This document shows, piece by piece, positions 12,529 to 64,000 of a DNA stretch of 64,000 nucleotides (its first letter is position 1; each line of letters opens with the position of its first letter). This DNA is from Falsiroseomonas frigidaquae (lineage in GTDB: Bacteria > Pseudomonadota > Alphaproteobacteria > Acetobacterales > Acetobacteraceae), in NCBI RefSeq assembly GCF_012163145.1, contig NZ_JAAVTX010000001.1:186001-250000 (forward strand). The letters are read 5' to 3'. Made by a program: the position numbers and the translations under genes. Under the pieces are notes generated by a model. That model was not told the DNA's origin and made no database searches. It worked only from the letters and a program-made list of their open reading frames with translations.

Positions 12529-12551
12529 GGGCGCGAGCCGGTATCGCGCCC
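12529..12551. terminator. hairpin between flgE and motA
   Basis: GGGCGCGA and TCGCGCCC form a perfect 8-base-pair stem around a 7-base loop in the 55-base gap between the convergent flgE and motA genes. There is no T run on either side, so it may be a weak bidirectional terminator. Confidence 0.5.
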
Positions 12552-12574
12552 GTGAAGCCGCGGCGCCGGCGCTG

Positions 12575-13438
12575 CTACCGGCCGGCATCCTGCAGCGCCG
12601 CCTCCATGGCGGCGAAGTCCGGCATCAGGCCGGACGGCATGGTCTTCCGGCCGGCCTCCACCGCCACCTGCGGCGCATTGCCATGCAGATGCGCCACCAG
12701 CACCGCGCGGATCACCTCGAAGAAGCGTGCCTCCTCCTCCACCACGCCCTTCAGCCGCACCGCCAGCGGGCCGACCAGGCCATAGGCCAGCAGCACGCCG
12801 AGGAAGGTGCCGACCAGCGCGCTGCCGATCATGCCGCCCAGCACCGCAGGCGGCTTGTCGATCGAGCCCATGGTCTTGATCACGCCGAGCACTGCGGCGA
12901 CGATGCCCAGCGCCGGCAGCGCATCGGCGGTGTTCTGCAGCGCGTGCGCCGCGTGCAGTTCCTCGTTGCGCAGCTTGCGAAGCTCATTCGCCATGATGTC
13001 CTCGATCTGGTGCGGATCATCGGCGTTCATGCCCACCATCCGCAGGTAGTCGCAGATCAGCATCACCGCGTGCGGGTCCTTGGCGATGCGCGGGTAGGCG
13101 GAGAAGATCGGGCTTTCCTCCGGCTTCTCGATATGCGGCTCCAGCCCCGCCGCGCCCTTCTGCTGCGCCACGCGCAGCAAGCGGTGCAGCAGCGTGCCGA
13201 GGTCGAGATAATCCTGCTGGCCGTAGCGCCCGCCCTTGATCGCCTTGCCCACCGCCGCCAGCGTGTGCTTCGCATCCGCCACCGAGTTGGACATCAGGAA
13301 GCTGCCGATCGCGGCACCGCCGATGATCAGCATCTCGAAGGGCAGCGCGTGCAGGATCGGCCCCATCTGCCCGCCGGCGACGATGTAGCCGCCGAAGACG
13401 CAGGCGAGCAGGAAGACGAAGCCGCCGATCACCGTCAT
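12575..13438 (-). CDS. motA: flagellar motor stator protein MotA
   Basis: 287 residues with four membrane helices (about 4-22, 33-50, 170-190 and 200-222). The large cytosolic loop contains RLLRVAQQKGAAGLEPHIEKP and MLICDYLRMVGMNADDPHQIEDIM, a charged region that contacts FliG. MotA with MotB forms the proton-driven stator. Its ATG overlaps the motB stop by 4 bases, an unusual motB-motA order that is nevertheless clear here. It converges on flgE. Confidence 0.93.
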   Translation of the reverse strand: MTVIGGFVFLLACVFGGYIVAGGQMGPILHALPFEMLIIGGAAIGSFLMSNSVADAKHTLAAVGKAIKGGRYGQQDYLDLGTLLHRLLRVAQQKGAAGLEPHIEKPEESPIFSAYPRIAKDPHAVMLICDYLRMVGMNADDPHQIEDIMANELRKLRNEELHAAHALQNTADALPALGIVAAVLGVIKTMGSIDKPPAVLGGMIGSALVGTFLGVLLAYGLVGPLAVRLKGVVEEEARFFEVIRAVLVAHLHGNAPQVAVEAGRKTMPSGLMPDFAAMEAALQDAGR

Positions 13439-14403
13439 GGTGCGGACTCTCCCGATTCAGGTATCACCATCAGCACCGCCACGCGGCGATTGGCGGCATC
13501 CAGCGGGCTGCCCGGCACCAGCAGGTCGCGGTCGGCACGGCCGGAGACGCTTCGCATCCGCGCTTCGCCGATACCGCCCTCCACCAGCAGCCGTCGCGTC
13601 GCATTGGCGCGTTCGGCCGATAGATCCCAGTTGGAACGATCGGCGGTGCCGCGGAACGGGGCGGCATCGGTGTGGCCGGTGATCTCGATCGGGTGCGGCA
13701 GACGGCCGAGCACGCCGGCGACGCGGGCCAGCAGCGCGCGGCCGCGTTCATTCGGGGCGGCCTGGCTGGTCTGGAACACCGGCTGGCCCTCGGCATCCAC
13801 GAGCTGGATGCGAAGCCCCTCCTTCACCTCCTCCACCATCAGCTGGCGGCCGAGCTGGGCCAGCGTCGGGTCGTTGCGGACCGCCTGGCGGATCTCCTCC
13901 GCCGCGCGGGCCATCACCTCGGCCCGCCGCGCCTCGGAGCGCTGGCGCTGCGTCTCCACCTCGTTCCCGGGCGCCTGCGGCGGCTCCGGCGGGCCGGCGG
14001 CGGCGCGACGGAAGCGGGGGCGCGCCGGCTGGTCCTCCGGCGGGTCATCCTCCTCATCCTCCGCATCGGGACCGGTCGGTCCCTGGCGCAGCTGCGGCAT
14101 CACTGGCGATTCCGAGATCAGCGGGCCGTCGCTGTGCAGGCTTCGGCCGCCGAAGGGCTGGCCGGATCCGCTGGCGCCACGGGCGAATTCATTCGGCTGC
14201 GCGAAGTAATCCGCGATGCCGCGGCGCTGTGCCTCGGTCGTCGCATTCACCAGCCACATCAGCAGGAAGAAGGCCATCATCGCCGTGACGAAGTCGGCAT
14301 AGGCGATCTTCCAGGCGCCGCCGTGATGTGCGTGGTCCTCCTCCGCGGCGACGCGCTTGATGACGATGGGTGCGTTCTCGCCCGTCCGGCCCTTGCGCGG
14401 CAT
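13435..14403 (-). CDS. motB: flagellar motor stator protein MotB
   Basis: 322 residues. A single membrane helix lies at about 30-52 (WKIAYADFVTAMMAFFLLMW), carrying the proton-binding Asp in YADF. A disordered acidic/Pro-rich linker at about 85-130 follows. The C-terminal OmpA-like domain binds peptidoglycan (ITGHTDAAPFRGTADRSNWD, LSAERANATRRLL). The gene lies 12 bases after the CtrA-like regulator and overlaps motA, so the regulator, motB and motA look like one transcript. Confidence 0.93.
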   Translation of the reverse strand: MPRKGRTGENAPIVIKRVAAEEDHAHHGGAWKIAYADFVTAMMAFFLLMWLVNATTEAQRRGIADYFAQPNEFARGASGSGQPFGGRSLHSDGPLISESPVMPQLRQGPTGPDAEDEEDDPPEDQPARPRFRRAAAGPPEPPQAPGNEVETQRQRSEARRAEVMARAAEEIRQAVRNDPTLAQLGRQLMVEEVKEGLRIQLVDAEGQPVFQTSQAAPNERGRALLARVAGVLGRLPHPIEITGHTDAAPFRGTADRSNWDLSAERANATRRLLVEGGIGEARMRSVSGRADRDLLVPGSPLDAANRRVAVLMVIPESGESAP

Positions 14404-59188: not shown

Positions 59189-60577
59189 TTACTTCTTTCG
59201 GCTCGGCGCTTCCGGCAGGTCGCCCACCATCTCGAACAGCGTCGCATCGGCCTGCGGCTTCGGCTTGGCGGGCTTCTTCGCGGGGCGCGGCGGCGGCGGC
59301 GGCGGCTCCGCTTCCGCCGCGGCGGGTGCGGCGGCGGGTGTCTCGATCACCACCTTGGCGCGCTTGGTGGGCTTCGGCGCCGGGGCGATGGCATCCAGCG
59401 CCTCCGACAGGTCGGCGATCAGGTCGGCCACATCCTCCAGCCCCACCGACAGGCGGATGGTGCCGTCGGTGATGCCGAGCTTGGTGCGTTCCTCCGCGCC
59501 GACGCGCATATGCGTGGTGGTTGCGGGATGCGTCACCAGGGACTTCGCATCGCCCAGGTTGTTCGAGACGTCGATCAGCTTCAGCGCGTCCAGGAAGCGG
59601 AAGGCCTCCGGCTTGCCGCCCTTCACGTCGAAGGTCACCAGGCTGCCGCCGGCGGCCATCTGCGCCTTGGCGAGGGCCTGCTGCGGATGGTCGATGCGGA
59701 AGGGGTACAGCACGCGCGCGATCTCCACCCGCTCCGCCAGGAAATCGGCGATGGCGGCGGCGGCGCGGCACATGGCGGGCAGCCGCAGGTGCAGCGTCTC
59801 CAGCCCCTTCAGGATGACCCAGGCGTTGAACGGGCTGATCGAGGGGCCGGTGTTGCGGATGAAGGGCTGCAGCACCTCATCGACCCACTTCTTCTTCCCC
59901 ATCACGGCGCCGCCGAGCACGCGGCCCTGGCCGTCCATGTGCTTGGTCAGCGAATAGACGACGACATCGGCGCCGAAATCCATCGGCTTCTGCAGCAGCG
60001 GCGTGGCGAAGACATTGTCCACCACCACCAGCGCGCCGGCCGCATGCGCCAGGTCGCAGACCGCGGCGAGGTCCACCAGGTCCAGCATCGGGTTGGAGGG
60101 CGTCTCCAGCAGGACCAGGGTGGCCGGCGTCTCGAACGCCGCCTTCCATTCCTCGAGGTTGCCGCCATCGACGAAGGTGGTGGAGATGCCGTAGCGCGGC
60201 AGCAGGGTGGAGACGATCCAGTGGCAGGACCCGAACAGCGCACGGGACGCCACCACCCGGTCCCCGGCCTTCAGGTGCGACAGCAGGGCCGCATGCACCG
60301 CGGCCATGCCGGTGGCGGTCAGGCGGCAGGCCTCCGCGCCTTCCAGCGCCGCCAGCCGGTCTTCCAGCATGGTGACGGTGGGGTTGCCGAAGCGGGAATA
60401 CTGGTAGTGCTGGGTGGTGCCGAGGAAGGTATCCTCCGCCTGGCCGGCGCTTTCATAGACGAAGCCGGAGGTGAGGTAGAGCGCCTCCGACGTCTCGTCG
60501 TGGTTGGAGCGCATCTGCCCACCGCGCACCAGCAGCGTGGCGGGGCGGAGCGGACGGTCGGGCAGGGTTCTGGCCAT
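59189..60577 (-). CDS. metZ: O-succinylhomoserine sulfhydrylase MetZ
   Basis: 462 residues of the Cys/Met-metabolism PLP family: LYLTSGFVYESAGQAEDTFL, YQYSRFGNPTVTMLEDRLAA, PLP Lys in VVYSLTKHMDGQGRVLGG and HPATTTHMRVGAEERTKLGI. MetZ makes homocysteine from O-succinylhomoserine and sulfide. The catalytic domain ends near residue 395; a tail of about 65 residues, Pro/Ala/Lys-rich with a run of prolines, is extra. The ATG at 60577 has AGGTG eight bases upstream; a GTG at 60586 directly abuts an upstream ORF stop. A SAM-II-like riboswitch precedes it. Confidence 0.92.
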   Translation of the reverse strand: MARTLPDRPLRPATLLVRGGQMRSNHDETSEALYLTSGFVYESAGQAEDTFLGTTQHYQYSRFGNPTVTMLEDRLAALEGAEACRLTATGMAAVHAALLSHLKAGDRVVASRALFGSCHWIVSTLLPRYGISTTFVDGGNLEEWKAAFETPATLVLLETPSNPMLDLVDLAAVCDLAHAAGALVVVDNVFATPLLQKPMDFGADVVVYSLTKHMDGQGRVLGGAVMGKKKWVDEVLQPFIRNTGPSISPFNAWVILKGLETLHLRLPAMCRAAAAIADFLAERVEIARVLYPFRIDHPQQALAKAQMAAGGSLVTFDVKGGKPEAFRFLDALKLIDVSNNLGDAKSLVTHPATTTHMRVGAEERTKLGITDGTIRLSVGLEDVADLIADLSEALDAIAPAPKPTKRAKVVIETPAAAPAAAEAEPPPPPPRPAKKPAKPKPQADATLFEMVGDLPEAPSRKK

Positions 60578-60586
60578 AAGGGACAC

Positions 60587-60655
60587 CTAAAAGCTGCAGC
60601 ACGGCGGCTGCGACCACAGGACGTCCGGCCCCCTTCCGGGGCAACAGGACCGCAT
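60587..60655 (-). CDS. possible Cys-rich 22-residue leader peptide upstream of metZ
   Basis: ATG at 60655 to TAG at 60587 encodes 22 residues with four Cys in two pairs (RSCCPG near the start and PPCCSF at the end). Its stop lies next to a GTG and overlaps the AGGTG ribosome site of metZ. GGGG lies about eight bases upstream of its ATG. The arrangement suggests translational coupling or Cys-dependent attenuation. It could also be a chance frame. Confidence 0.4.
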   Translation of the reverse strand: MRSCCPGRGPDVLWSQPPCCSF

Positions 60656-60671
60656 ATGACGGACCCCGCGA

Positions 60672-60759
60672 CCCTTTAGCGCGCTTGTTTTCGGAGGAAC
60701 CAGATCCTCCGCCCGGTACACCGGGACCTCGCCGCAATCAGGCCGGACAAATCGCGAGG
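60672..60759 (-). ncRNA. SAM-II-like riboswitch with an internal insertion
   Basis: On the minus strand a 6-base-pair P1 stem (CCTCGC/GCGAGG, 60754-60759 with 60727-60732) encloses GATTTGTCCGGCCTGATTGC, close to the SAM-II loop GAUUU..CCG..AUUGC. The downstream pseudoknot strand is GAAAACAAGCGCGCTAAAGG, ending in the conserved GCTAAA. Between them are two extra hairpins (CCCGG/CCGGG at 60712-60725 and GGAGGA/TCCTCC at 60693-60710), as in long-loop SAM-II variants. SAM-II riboswitches are typical upstream of metA, metX and metZ in alphaproteobacteria. Confidence 0.72.
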
Positions 60760-60835
60760 GGCGCATGAGCGCCTGGGCATGGCTTACGAGCGGGGCGGGC
60801 GGCGGTCAAGCAGCGTGTGACAGCTGTGGGGCAGC

Positions 60836-60865
60836 TTGCAGGGTTGGGGCGGAGGCGGATATAGA
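60836..60865 (+). promoter_or_regulatory. sigma-70-type promoter of the tRNA-like fragment
   Basis: TTGCAG (60836-60841), 18 bases, then TATAGA (60860-60865), with the expected transcription start a few bases before the tRNA-like 5' end at 60875. It looks like an intact stable-RNA promoter. Confidence 0.5.
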
Positions 60866-60874
60866 GGCAGGGCT

Positions 60875-60925
60875 GCGGGCGTAGTTCAGAGATAGAAGAA
60901 CGCATCCGCAGTTTTCTGCGGCCCC
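60875..60925 (+). pseudogene. tRNA-Gly-like 5' fragment
   Basis: GCGGGCGTAGTTCAGAGATA is close to the first half of bacterial tRNA-Gly (acceptor strand GCGGGCG, TA, D-arm GTTC...GAAC), but the D-arm has about three extra bases and the sequence departs from tRNA after CGCATCC. Then comes a perfect hairpin CCGCAG-TTTT-CTGCGG (60906-60921). No anticodon arm, T-arm or CCA end follows. It is probably the remnant of a tRNA gene broken by integration or deletion. Confidence 0.5.
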
Positions 60926-60926
60926 G

Positions 60927-60965
60927 CCTGGCAAAAATCCGCTAAGCGTTCCGGTGGTTGCCAGG
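60927..60965. repeat. inverted repeat downstream of the tRNA-like fragment
   Basis: CCTGGCAA (60927-60934) and TTGCCAGG (60958-60965) are perfect 8-base arms around a 23-base loop that itself contains CGCTAAGCG. Candidate attachment or recombination site remnant, or a small structured RNA. Confidence 0.4.
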
Positions 60966-61214
60966 GATTTGACCGGCGCATGTTCTTGCCCCGTTCATGG
61001 CAGACATCTTGCACCGATGTCTCGCCGCCGATCCGTGGCAAACGGAAGCCTTACCCTTCGGTCGCTCGCGGCGCGGATGGGTTACGGCGCCCCAGGCCTG
61101 GCGGCCGGGGTTGCGCTGCACTCGGCCGATGGGGGCGAGCCTCCATCCCGCTCCTGCCTCATCTGCTAACGCACGGTACTTGCGGCAGAGCGATGAGTGA
61201 CCTGCGCGCCGCAG
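60966..61214. other. stretch without a convincing gene
   Basis: Short overlapping frames exist on both strands but none has a family resemblance, a good ribosome site or consistent codon use. Nothing else was recognised. Confidence 0.4.
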
Positions 61215-61364
61215 TTACTTTTTCTTGGTCACCGGACGGCTTGTTGCCTGTGTGAGTGCGGAGGCAGCGACCGACTTCACGGCAGGCGAACTCTTCGGTG
61301 AAGACAGCAACTCCGACGCAGTGGACGCCACGCGGGGTGAGGTAACTTCAGTTCTCTTGGCCAT
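61215..61364 (-). CDS. small basic Ser/Ala-rich protein, 49 residues
   Basis: ATG at 61364 to TAA at 61215. An AGGAGA ribosome site lies about eight bases upstream, behind an AT-rich TACTAAAT stretch that could be a -10 element. The chain starts MAKRTEV, has two similar Ser-rich halves (SPRVASTASELLSS and SPAVKSVAASALTQ) and ends PVTKKK. I recall similar short alphaproteobacterial proteins of the type SPxVASxASxxL...KSVAxSALxQ, with no known role. Codons such as AGA, ACT, GTT, TCA and TTG are unlike the GC-rich neighbours and suggest transfer. Confidence 0.7.
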   Translation of the reverse strand: MAKRTEVTSPRVASTASELLSSPKSSPAVKSVAASALTQATSRPVTKKK

Positions 61365-61408
61365 GGGCCTGTCTCCTATTTAGTATTGTTGGCGGCGAGA
61401 TGAGGGTG

Positions 61409-61434
61409 CCCGCCGGCCCTGTAGGACCGGCGGG
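61409..61434 (-). terminator. hairpin between two small genes
   Basis: CCCGCCGG/CCGGCGGG arms extended by CCT/AGG across one mismatch, with a 2-base loop; it lies just past the stop of the 50-residue gene. No T run. Confidence 0.45.
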
Positions 61435-61439
61435 AGCCC

Positions 61440-61592
61440 CTACCCGGTGGGCTCGAGCCCGACCCAAATGACCATCGGCCAACCCTGGTAGCCGTAGTCC
61501 CGCGCTTTCAGCACAAGACCGCTACTGGTGGTCCGAGTGGCCCTGAAGATCAGGCCGAAACCCGGGAGGAGCTGCTGCCGAGCTTTCGCCAC
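61440..61592 (-). CDS. small hypothetical protein, 50 residues
   Basis: GTG at 61592 to TAG at 61440, preceded by a full AAGGAGGTG Shine-Dalgarno site five bases upstream. The sequence starts MAKARQQLLPGFGLIFRATR and ends with an aromatic segment DYGYQGWPMVIWVGLEPTG. No signal peptide or known family was recognised. It has the same orientation as the 49-residue gene 75 bases downstream. The strong ribosome site is the main support. Confidence 0.6.
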   Translation of the reverse strand: MAKARQQLLPGFGLIFRATRTTSSGLVLKARDYGYQGWPMVIWVGLEPTG

Positions 61593-61871
61593 GTCAGCAC
61601 CTCCTTGACTGCGAGAACAGAAGACGGTTGCCGGCTGCGACTCGGGCGACTACTGTCGCCCGCGTTCCTGGTCGGCGGACGACAACCGCCCCCCGCGAGG
61701 GTTCTCGTGATCCTCGCGGGGTACCTTCACCCACGCCATTGCGACGTGGCTCAGGGTCGGGGCAGACGGTGTTCGCGGTTAGGCAAATCCGACCATTCCC
61801 CCACTCTCATGTGCCCATGGGCTAAGCGGCACCAGCGATCTTTCAGGACACCACGAGCTGCAGTGGCAGAC
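61593..61871. other. gene-free stretch with a strong hairpin
   Basis: A perfect 10-base-pair stem CCCCGCGAGG/CCTCGCGGGG with an 11-base loop lies at 61691-61721. No U tract follows on either strand. Only very short frames occur otherwise. Confidence 0.4.
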
Positions 61872-62384
61872 TCAAGCGGCCATGTTCTTTAAGATCGTCT
61901 TCATTGGAATCATCAGCGTGGATGGCGTTAGTGGCGACGGCTTGAAGCCGTACTTCATGTAGAACGCTTCAGCTTTCGGATTGATGGCATGCACCAAGAG
62001 TGCCGCGCTGCCTATCTCTTCTGAGGCCGCAAGGCTTCTTCGCATTGCCTCACGAAGCATGGCAGCACCGATGCCACCACCATGGTAAGCCCTGTGAACC
62101 GCCAGACGTGCCAAGATCGTAATGGGTGCTGGATCGGGCATCTGGCGTCTCACGTCTCGGATGCAATCGGAGTGGGCAACCGAGCCAGCGGCCAGCGTAA
62201 AGAAGGCCACCACGTCGGTCTCGCCCTCATGGGTCAGCACGAAGGTCCTGCTTGCGCGACTGACCTGGTTCGCCAACGCCCATCGCCGAAGCCAGTCATC
62301 CAGCACCGCTTCGCCGCAATCGAAGTTGCACAGCTTGTGGTCGCCTTGAAGCGGGTGGGGCGACCGCAGGCGCGCGGACGCCAC
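61872..62384 (-). CDS. GNAT acetyltransferase toxin, TacT type
   Basis: 170 residues. The pattern LRSPHPLQGDHKLCNFDCGE, AVLDDWLRRWALANQVSRAS, RTFVL, VAFFTLAAGSVAH, the acetyl-CoA loop ITILARLAVHRAYHGGGIGA and AFYMKYGFKPSPL is that of TacT/AtaT toxins, which acetylate aminoacyl-tRNAs and block translation. It lies directly after a DUF1778 gene, the expected antitoxin. The GTG at 62384 is chosen: it lies 11 bases after the antitoxin stop and just before the conserved RLRSPHPL start; the longer frame overlaps the antitoxin. Confidence 0.88.
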   Translation of the reverse strand: MASARLRSPHPLQGDHKLCNFDCGEAVLDDWLRRWALANQVSRASRTFVLTHEGETDVVAFFTLAAGSVAHSDCIRDVRRQMPDPAPITILARLAVHRAYHGGGIGAAMLREAMRRSLAASEEIGSAALLVHAINPKAEAFYMKYGFKPSPLTPSTLMIPMKTILKNMAA

Positions 62385-62395
62385 CGTTAGGGGAA

Positions 62396-62701
62396 CTATT
62401 TTTCCCAAGGGGCCCTCTTTTGCAGAAGACGCTTCAGCGCCGGGTTGTCCTCCGGCGGAGCGTCCAGCGCCGCCGTAAAAGCCTTCCATCGCTCTTCAAC
62501 GACAAAGAACTGCCGCTGATCAAGTAGTGTGTCTACAGCTGCCTTTCGGGCACTCTCCAGCATGAACGCTGTACGCGTTTTGCCCTGCATTTTGGCGGCC
62601 CGATCAATCAGTTCAGAGTCTTCCTTGCGCGCGCGGAGGTTGATTTTCACCTCCTGGGAGCCTTCATTGTCGTCGTCCCGCTCCCTGCGCAATGCGGTCA
62701 T
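62396..62701 (-). CDS. DUF1778 antitoxin, TacA type
   Basis: 101 residues. The N-terminal ribbon-helix-helix is VKINLRARKEDSELIDRAAK and MQGKTRTAFMLESARKAAVD; the C-terminal toxin-neutralising part is FFVVEERWKAFTAALDAPPE with DNPALKRLL. TacA antitoxins bind the toxin and repress their own promoter. The ATG at 62701 has AGGAGA six bases upstream; an ATG eight codons earlier is less well placed. Confidence 0.88.
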   Translation of the reverse strand: MTALRRERDDDNEGSQEVKINLRARKEDSELIDRAAKMQGKTRTAFMLESARKAAVDTLLDQRQFFVVEERWKAFTAALDAPPEDNPALKRLLQKRAPWEK

Positions 62702-63108
62702 AGGTGTCTCCTGTGGGTCTGTCATGGCGCGTCGCCTTTGGCGTTGTGCGCACGGCGTGCATACACGTGGCGTGCGGACAACGTCAATACATATTGATGG
62801 TTCCGCCTCCTGCGCTGCAGAAATTGCAGCACCCCTTGCGGACCTCGCCGCGGCTGGGGCGTGTCATTGGCTCGGCAGCAAGACGTCCCTGGTGGCGCAT
62901 CCCGATCACGCCAAGCCTCCACGGCGCGCCGCGATACGGTGCAACTCTCCCTGCCGTAGGGCCGCCCGCAAGGGCGGGATCGCGATACGAGGTTCCTGGG
63001 AGGCCTCACCGGCGCGCTACCACCAGCCCCGAAACGCAGAAAGCCCCGCCCGACACACGACCAGGCGGGGTTTCCATGGTGGACAGTACTTGCGAGGACG
63101 CCCGATAG
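62702..63108. promoter_or_regulatory. control region of the toxin-antitoxin pair, then non-coding sequence
   Basis: A perfect inverted repeat TCAATA-CA-TATTGA (62784-62797) overlaps the minus-strand -35 TTGACG (62782-62787), with TATGCA 18 bases on, so antitoxin autoregulation is likely. Further on, CCGCCC-GCAA-GGGCGG (62962-62977) is a short GNRA-type hairpin flanked by two copies of CGCGATACG. No gene was recognised in 62800-63040. Confidence 0.5.
63040..63076 (-). terminator. Rho-independent-type terminator
   Basis: CCCCGCC/GGCGGGG arms with flanking GAAA/TTTC around a 13-base loop; on the minus strand the stem is followed by CTTTCTG. It lies 33 bases beyond the stop of the peptidoglycan-binding remnant. 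Confidence 0.6.
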
Positions 63109-63252
63109 CTACAGCCCCAGCCCCAGCGCCCGTGCCGTCGCCGACCCCACCACGCCATCCGGCGCCAGCCCCATCTGCGCCTGGAACTTCTGCACCGCGA
63201 TCTCTCTCACCCGGCCGAACAGGCCATCGTGCACCAGCTTGTCGGCGCGGAA
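63109..63252 (-). pseudogene. peptidoglycan-binding domain remnant
   Basis: The last 46 residues of an open frame contain DGLFGRVREIAVQKFQAQMG and LAPDGVVGSATARALGLGL, the C-terminal repeat of a PG_binding_1 domain. The sequence upstream in the same frame does not look like the rest of such a protein, and no catalytic domain is found in any frame. It is probably the tail of a lysozyme or endolysin gene whose 5' part was lost. Confidence 0.6.
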
Positions 63253-63392
63253 GGTCAGGACAGATCCGCGAGCGTTGGCGGTCCGAGACAGCCGACAGAT
63301 CAGCGCGCCGAGGCCGCATCGACCAGCCCCATACAGACAGAGGTAAACTATCTGGGATAGAGGCCTCGCCCCCCCGCGCAAACAGGTCAGGT

Positions 63393-63515
63393 ATGCGAAA
63401 TTTGCTCTCGTATGTTCTCGTGCTCGTCATCCTGCTGGCCTGTGCCTCAGCATGGATGATGCGAGATCGGAATATGGCAAGCTGGTCCACGATCCCGTAT
63501 GATCCATTTCCATAA
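63393..63515 (+). CDS. predicted exported 40-residue peptide, copy A (TIPYDPFP end)
   Basis: 40 residues. Residues 1-20 form a signal peptide or membrane helix (MRNLLSYVLVLVILLACASA), with an AxA-type site after residue 20 and a possible lipobox LLAC at 14-17. The remaining 20 residues start WMMRDRN and end STIPYDPFP. Copy B at 63692-63814 has exactly the same length and 15 identical positions without gaps. A weak AGGT-type ribosome site precedes the ATG. No known family was recognised. Confidence 0.6.
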   Translation: MRNLLSYVLVLVILLACASAWMMRDRNMASWSTIPYDPFP

Positions 63516-63691
63516 CGGCGAAACCGTGCGCCGCATGCGAGCCGGTGTCGCCAACCGCTTAGTGGGGCGCGAGAGCACGCCATCGCTCGGCCGAAGCAGC
63601 ACGGCGGAATTGGACGTCAAACGCACCGGAGGTAGACGAGACCAGAATTTGTGCTGGATGCAGCCGGCCTCACCACCTCTTCAGGCATGCC

Positions 63692-63814
63692 ATGCGGCTC
63701 CCGCTCTGGCACGCCCTTCTGGCACTAGTCCTGATCGCGTCCGGCTCTGCTTCAGTGGTGCCCGCCAAAGAAATCGAGAGGCTGTTCACTATCCCCTACG
63801 ACCCTCGTCCCTGA
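63692..63814 (+). CDS. predicted exported 40-residue peptide, copy B (TIPYDPRP end)
   Basis: 40 residues. Residues 1-20 (MRLPLWHALLALVLIASGSA) form a signal peptide with a GSA site at the same position as in copy A. The remaining 20 residues start SVVPAKE and end FTIPYDPRP. The shared parts with copy A are the MR start, the hydrophobic core, the SA at the cleavage site and the TIPYDPxP tail. The 3' end overlaps, by 26 bases, the stop end of a minus-strand frame. CAGG lies about seven bases upstream. Confidence 0.55.
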   Translation: MRLPLWHALLALVLIASGSASVVPAKEIERLFTIPYDPRP

Positions 63815-64000
63815 CCGCTTCGTCCGGAGGCCCGCCCGGCAGATCGACGGCGTGAGCGAGCAGCGGCGGGAGGGCCAACCCATTCTTCGTGCGGCGCTGC
63901 TCGTGAAACTCAGCGCGCTGCAGGAGCAAGTTTAGGTCCTCGCGAGTGATGTCGAAGGTTTCACCAACATCTGCCAGCGCCTTGTCGATGGCGTCCGGGT
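63789..64000 (-). CDS. unidentified protein, C-terminal part (runs off the window)
   Basis: An open frame without a start in the window ends at TAG 63789-63791. About 70 residues are visible, with an acidic helical part (DKALADVGETFDITREDLN), then LLLQRAEFHEQRRTKNGLAL and PPLLAHAVDLPGG, and a charged tail. The composition looks like a real soluble protein, but no family was recognised. Its tail overlaps the 3' end of peptide gene B on the other strand. Confidence 0.5.
   Translation of the reverse strand, partial: PDAIDKALADVGETFDITREDLNLLLQRAEFHEQRRTKNGLALPPLLAHAVDLPGGPPDEAVRDEGRRG

Follow-up and report, generated by a model that had tools for sequence, protein, structure and literature searches.

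Near the end of the window (the whole stretch of 64,000 nucleotides that was analysed) lie two neighbouring open reading frames, each opening with a hydrophobic segment and each closing with the residues PYDPxP, and similar small genes in two related genera suggest that they belong to an undescribed small-protein family. What might such proteins be doing? Tentatively, and at somewhat less than an even chance, we take them for microproteins that are exported or anchored in the membrane, members of a sparsely distributed and in part mobile family of the Acetobacteraceae in which the PYDPxP tail is the working part.

The two frames, here ORF1 and ORF2, would then be diverged tandem duplicates of a single small gene, and the family would consist of Acetobacteraceae proteins of 40 to about 60 residues that are brought to the inner membrane by a short N-terminal hydrophobic segment of the Sec type. 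That segment would either be cleaved past a small-x-Ala site or be retained as an anchor with the N-terminus in and the C-terminus out; after it would come a variable stretch and then the fixed C-terminal P-Y-D-P-x-P. Placed on the periplasmic side, the tail would probably act as a ligand; its docking partner would most likely be a protein of the membrane or the periplasm, and the microprotein would modulate the activity of that protein.

Two small ORFs with one tail

The preliminary description had reported two plus-strand frames of 40 residues each, 176 bases apart, with 15 of 40 positions identical without gaps. Coordinates, strand, lengths and the spacing of 176 bases all check out, and the identities and the two tails came out the same when they were derived afresh.

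63393..63515, plus strand: ORF1, 40 codons, MRNLLSYVLVLVILLACASAWMMRDRNMASWSTIPYDPFP, stop TAA
63402..63452, plus strand: ORF1 hydrophobic segment to ASA (residues about 4-20), best Kyte-Doolittle 15-mer mean 2.93
63489..63512, plus strand: ORF1 tail TIPYDPFP, from the sequence
63692..63814, plus strand: ORF2, 40 codons, MRLPLWHALLALVLIASGSASVVPAKEIERLFTIPYDPRP, stop TGA
63701..63751, plus strand: ORF2 hydrophobic segment to GSA (residues 4-20), Kyte-Doolittle 15-mer 2.33; helix 4-20 in the AlphaFold2 model
63788..63811, plus strand: ORF2 tail TIPYDPRP, from the sequence

The small-x-Ala site claimed for both peptides is likewise there, at residues 18-20 (ASA in ORF1, GSA in ORF2), and cleavage at residue 20 is what a rule of thumb would predict. 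When AlphaFold2 is given all eight sequences of the set described below, it builds a helix from residue 4 to 20, a short helix from 25 to 31 and an unstructured tail, with a mean pLDDT of 72 and a pTM of 0.32; the model is compatible with an exported or anchored microprotein, but weak. A frame of 328 codons that ends in ORF1, and that might have made ORF1 a piece of a larger protein, runs antisense to an endolysin remnant and was rejected.

How alike the two ORFs are, and how alike chance would make them

The pattern ATHCCNTAYGAYCCNNNNCCNTRR matches twice in the window as against never in 100 shuffles of the window, and in the whole genome of 6.08 Mb it matches at those same two places only. 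To gauge chance, frames of 40 codons or more were taken from a stretch of 800 kb on the home contig and paired at random; 6 of 59,993,571 pairs reached the information score of the tail: one is ORF1/ORF2 itself, four involve one repeated tail, and one is another pair. The same 800 kb hold 52,416 same-strand frame pairs no more than 1 kb apart, and the chance expectation for a local tail match is about 0.001-0.005 per 800 kb, or about 1e-4 per window, which is small for any one window but not negligible over thousands of them, and thus within reach of a very large scan. If matching residues are simply counted, over frames of 8 codons or more, three other local pairs in 800 kb agree at 7 of 8 tail residues (SPAAGASA/SPAACASA, RAAVPAGR/RAAVPARR and PAASKIGL/PAASKMGL, with 15-18 of 24 bases alike); the ORF1/ORF2 match is unusual because the residues I, Y and D are rare.

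Outside the tail the evidence for kinship is modest, with 7 of 31 residues identical between positions 2 and 32 (shuffle mean 3.3, P 0.027). A single BLASTP comparison of the two peptides gives an E value of 8e-8. The DNA looks as one would expect of duplicates held together at the protein level. Identities at codon positions 1, 2 and 3 number 27, 25 and 15 of 41; at an offset of 299 bases, windows within the ORFs are identical at 30-33 of 60 positions as against 13-28 around them; and 6 of the 7 shared tail codons differ synonymously. By the NG86 method pN is 0.35, pS is 0.77 and dS is saturated; given the last two values, and with no repeat reported between the ORFs, a DNA-level repeat was rejected as the source of the likeness. 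The earlier suggestion that the ORFs look like diverged duplicates under protein-level constraint, with the tail as the conserved part, is supported.

Searches for relatives

The full TIPYDPxP tail, which the preliminary description had taken for the conserved motif, was not found on any relative, whether among 15 congeners, among 397 other genomes of the family or in a scan of GTDB species; a shorter PYDPxP tail does occur on similar small genes in two other genera. A pattern search of the 15 congeners found no copy of the full tail, and pattern and profile searches together found neither ORF in any of them, which is odd for an old duplication unless the genes were acquired. The single strict match in the 397 family genomes has a stop inside, and no small signal-bearing gene turned up there. 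The GTDB scan, which asked for S or T before IPYDPxP and is blind to tails such as KPYDPLP, RPYDPLP and QPYDPLP (the relaxed tail was sought in 344 family genomes), gave 14 stretches, none convincing as a small signal-bearing gene. Two of them are the C-termini of short-chain dehydrogenases by Pfam, from Chitinophaga (L028) and Pinibacter (L035), which are identical to TIPYDPRP, apparently by coincidence; an archaeal frame of 32 codons (L027) passes the hydrophobicity cut and is without a well placed start; and the remainder have no hydrophobic segment, are interrupted by a stop within the frame or shortly before it, or have TGG at the end.

A profile built from ORF1 and ORF2 yielded no convincing relative in 398 genomes of the family or 385 of the class. 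The matches ranked under the window pair are partial and weak (per-genome values of 2.4e-4 and 2.6e-4 at best, with hundreds of genomes searched), and when all loci gathered up to that point were scanned for a hydrophobic segment with a PYDPxP-like end, none of these matches came up. Searches with tblastn gave no match on plasmids for ORF2, one peptide of genus g64 and one of genus g25 (the two other genera), and none in phages for ORF1 or one g64 peptide. In viral contigs the strict patterns hit 1 and 2 stretches with no signal-bearing small ORF among them, PYDP[LF]P-TGA hit 16 stretches (8 distinct frames, 6 of them scorable, none passing the hydrophobicity cut), and the profile of the window pair (A1) hit 44, none of which was confirmed.

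It was a looser tail that brought the other genes to light. A search of 388 family genomes with one mismatch permitted gave an ORF (L135) with a hydrophobic segment and KPYDPLP-stop. Outside the window it marked 26 places; 17 were read, and 9 were left out, 4 for an internal stop and 5 for TGG or CGG at the end. Another search added 13 places, 4 of them read. Asking 344 family genomes for PYDPxP and a stop gave 20 places, 2 of which are the window's own ORFs. The remaining 18 comprise 5 with TGG in place of the stop, 3 with an internal stop and 10 frames with a real stop; a hydrophobic 15-mer of 2.19 or more is present in 6 of these 10, all 6 being among the 9 that have 30 or more open codons, as against 0.65-0.9% of the frames on an 800 kb stretch of the home contig. 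Four of the five genomes drawn from g25 carry such an ORF (G039, G126, G221 and G281; the fifth, G179, has no match), and in g64 there are two paralogues in G199, a match without a hydrophobic segment in G152 and no match in G078. Counted by genus, tail and hydrophobic segment go together in 2 of 5 cases, for which chance would be about 1e-3. The PYDPxP tail itself is not enriched, a reversed control pattern giving about 54 matches (frames unread) against 20 in the same 344 genomes; enrichment is seen only for the tail combined with a hydrophobic segment.

ORF1, ORF2 and the six further ORFs thus all end in P-Y-D-P-x-P and a stop, and all eight are short with one N-terminal hydrophobic segment (Kyte-Doolittle 15-mer 2.19-2.93). 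Only P, Y, D, P and the last P are invariant among them. As for homology outside the tail, the A1 profile (E cut 0.05) missed the g25 and g64 genes in a draw of family genomes expected to contain them, and the window pair is therefore tied to these genes by tail and layout only, common descent being conjectural. On visual inspection several members show plausible cleavage sites (ASA|W, GSA|S, AFA|D, AYA|D and AIA|E), and the last 20 residues carry a net charge of -1 to +1 in all eight.

That no known family fits, as had been proposed, was borne out by sequence searches of Pfam, NCBIfam, PHROGs and the PDB. For none of the eight did a family rise above noise in the first three (best values 0.11, 0.019 and 0.063, the NCBIfam value belonging to a large secretion protein family hit by two members), and the best PDB sequence, at 0.66, is no match above noise either. 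In the literature we found no small PYDPxP proteins; text matches to "IPYDP" concern dengue and are irrelevant, and "PYDPLP" gave none.

Selection on the relatives

If the relatives are genes, one might hope to see purifying selection between homologues, and we see it in the two pairs that can be measured well: the G199 paralogues (NG86 dN/dS 0.19/0.74, about 0.26) and the syntenic G126 and G039 (0.36/0.68, about 0.52). G126/G221 gives 0.47/1.60, and G126/G281 gives 0.57/0.57, which is no constraint. Between G126 and G039, 49 codons align without a gap where the flanks need long ones, and the likeness extends upstream of the ATG to a common GTG that would give 60 residues, which leaves the g25 starts uncertain. 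The two G199 genes (a and b) are likewise ungapped within the ORF, where blocks are alike at 27-33 of 40 positions as against 16-20 of 40 before it, and they share a stretch of 11 bases past the stop.

Genomic setting

Around the window pair the following genes were recognised; they are its surroundings and are not counted in the proposed family.

61872..62725, minus strand: overlapping genes for a GNAT acetyltransferase and a TacA-type antitoxin, upstream of the ORFs (Pfam)
63109..63381, minus strand: remnant of a phage endolysin C-terminus (PG_binding_1, Pfam), just upstream of ORF1
63789..64000, minus strand: convergent gene for an HPP-family membrane protein (PF04982), of which only the 3' part falls within the window; the final 26 bases of the gene overlap the end of ORF2

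The alignment of the HPP protein with a homologue in G013 stops at residue 247 of 270, so that ORF2 overlaps the unaligned end. GC3 is 0.65-0.71 in the GNAT, TacA and HPP genes, 0.71 in ORF2 and 0.585 in ORF1, as against 0.92 in the native gene upstream, and because of this low GC3 the stretch around the ORFs looks acquired. By Pfam the GNAT and TacA genes form a TacA-TacT-like toxin-antitoxin module, and over a stretch of 111 bases the DNA of the endolysin remnant is 84% alike to that of a prophage endolysin some 2.8 kb off (C9:252047-252157). In the neighbouring prophage, home contig C9 has repeats at multiples of 78 bases with WSRSSAAP-like frame ends (about 261042-262212, or L004 about 12540-13710), within a long tape-measure-like frame. 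An Rfam search of window positions 60500-64000 with E up to 1 gave a sole match, to the SAM_alpha riboswitch (60726-60759, minus strand; 29.4 bits, under the gathering threshold of 36), upstream of the gene for a PLP enzyme of Cys/Met metabolism (59189-60586).

With neighbours predicted as frames of at least 80 codons under a GC3 filter, the next gene downstream lies on the opposite strand at seven of seven places (the window, G126, G039, G221, G281 and two in G199; six if G126 and G039 are taken as one), and there is accordingly no downstream cistron. Pfam supports five of the seven convergent genes (that of G039 through its likeness to that of G126), those of G221 and G199b being the exceptions. 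The G126 and G039 ORFs sit in the same gap, with a hydrolase of the beta-lactamase fold on one side and a class A penicillin-binding protein on the other. Within a few kb of the ORFs of G281 and G199b, phrog_4756 proteins are encoded that are homologous, at 45% identity. The surroundings of G199b also include a resolvase and an integrase, as well as a GAF/HWE histidine kinase at about 0.9 kb from the peptide gene. The phrog_4756 proteins (L175:5263-6999 and L179:2940-4613; 560-580 residues) are of unassigned function in PHROGs and have HNH or weak GIY-YIG type genes as neighbours.

Other readings

One might imagine instead that the segment is always cleaved and that a mature peptide of about 15-26 residues leaves the cell as a secreted signal or bacteriocin-like molecule, its PYDPxP recognised by a receptor or target. 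The by-eye cleavage sites, the two copies in each of two genomes, the phage-like, resolvase or integrase genes near G281 and G199b and the histidine kinase beside the latter would all suit such a peptide, which we nevertheless consider unlikely, if not very much so: the Pfam-scanned subset of neighbours includes no exporter, immunity or receptor family, and the near-neutral charge of the last 20 residues is unlike that of cationic antimicrobial peptides. A stronger form, in which mobile and repeatedly duplicated Acetobacteraceae peptides of this size are read by a dedicated receptor, is doubtful. The receptor would read the tail, leaving the rest of the peptide (the export signal apart, which is also kept) free to vary.

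Could the window pair be no genes at all, but two unrelated non-coding frames in a decayed stretch of lower GC, with only the g25 and g64 genes real? The missing counterparts of the full tail in congeners and other scans, the low GC3 of ORF1 beside the native gene, and a chance match attainable in a large scan all lean that way. We rate it rather unlikely, since the codon-position pattern, the BLASTP score and the equal length speak against it, two other genera have PYDPxP after hydrophobic segments, and real neighbours (TacA, GNAT, HPP) have a GC3 as low as 0.65-0.71.

The nearest anatomical analogy in print is with leader or arrest peptides, but the features that define these fail here. The arrest peptides that monitor Sec and YidC (including ApdP, the RQH family, NSP-stop and NAP-stop; PMC10987492) have an N-terminal localisation signal, a short conserved motif at the C-terminal end and a proline before the stop, a layout that our set, with its putative export signal, resembles. 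One could thus suppose that the Pro-stop tail stalls the terminating ribosome until export or another cue relieves it, and that a neighbouring gene is so controlled. The PYDPxP set, in contrast, has another motif, a shorter chain and no RAPP-like or PP motif in any of the eight; neither secA, secDF nor yidC lies downstream, and ORF1 is followed only by ORF2. Since a convergent gene comes next at each of the seven places, such a role is disfavoured, and given the length of the ribosomal tunnel a chain of 40 residues would presumably still have its hydrophobic segment inside it at the stop codon. We regard this reading as improbable.

A small toxic membrane peptide on mobile islands, of the type I or phage-exclusion kind, is most improbable of all: the set is small, hydrophobic and doubled in two genomes, and the window locus adjoins a TacA-GNAT module and a prophage, and those of G281 and G199b lie near phrog_4756, HNH, integrase or resolvase genes, but the G126 and G039 copies occupy a conserved gap, the Rfam search yielded the riboswitch alone, and such toxins are not known to conserve a hydrophilic tail.

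Known small proteins nearest to the set

Single-span bacterial microproteins that tune membrane complexes, such as CydX, AcrZ and KdpF, resemble the set in size, in their single hydrophobic segment and in having stand-alone or end-of-unit genes; they differ in that the PYDPxP set conserves its tail and matches no sequence family in Pfam or NCBIfam. Entericidins, which are small envelope lipoproteins in tandem, recall the putatively exported twin peptides of the window, but none of the eight matches the Pfam entericidin family, and a canonical lipobox is absent by eye (the nearest being LLAC in ORF1). The CutF-like exported regulators (DUF2946; Rhodobacter capsulatus CutF; PMC9973294) are short proteins of Alphaproteobacteria that carry a Sec signal and have proline in their C-terminus. 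Our set resembles them in shortness and C-terminal proline, and its hydrophobic segments and small-x-Ala sites, read by eye, may amount to a Sec signal. The set differs in having no PP near the end, no same-strand gene within 1 kb downstream and no DUF2946 match in Pfam, and CxxxC occurs in one member of eight only (G039, Cys 13 and 17, within the hydrophobic segment).

What the family would mean

Genes of 40-60 codons are routinely overlooked, and the PYDPxP set can be found only through its tail. Were a dedicated receptor to exist, one would have a new system of peptide signalling or inter-strain recognition in the Alphaproteobacteria. For the exported or membrane-anchored microproteins that we favour, the gain would be of another kind: if they are translated, they would provide a sharply defined, testable free-C-terminus motif, PYDPxP, for small exported alphaproteobacterial proteins, with natural paralogue pairs at hand for mutational work and one clear question to put to them, namely, what reads the tail?
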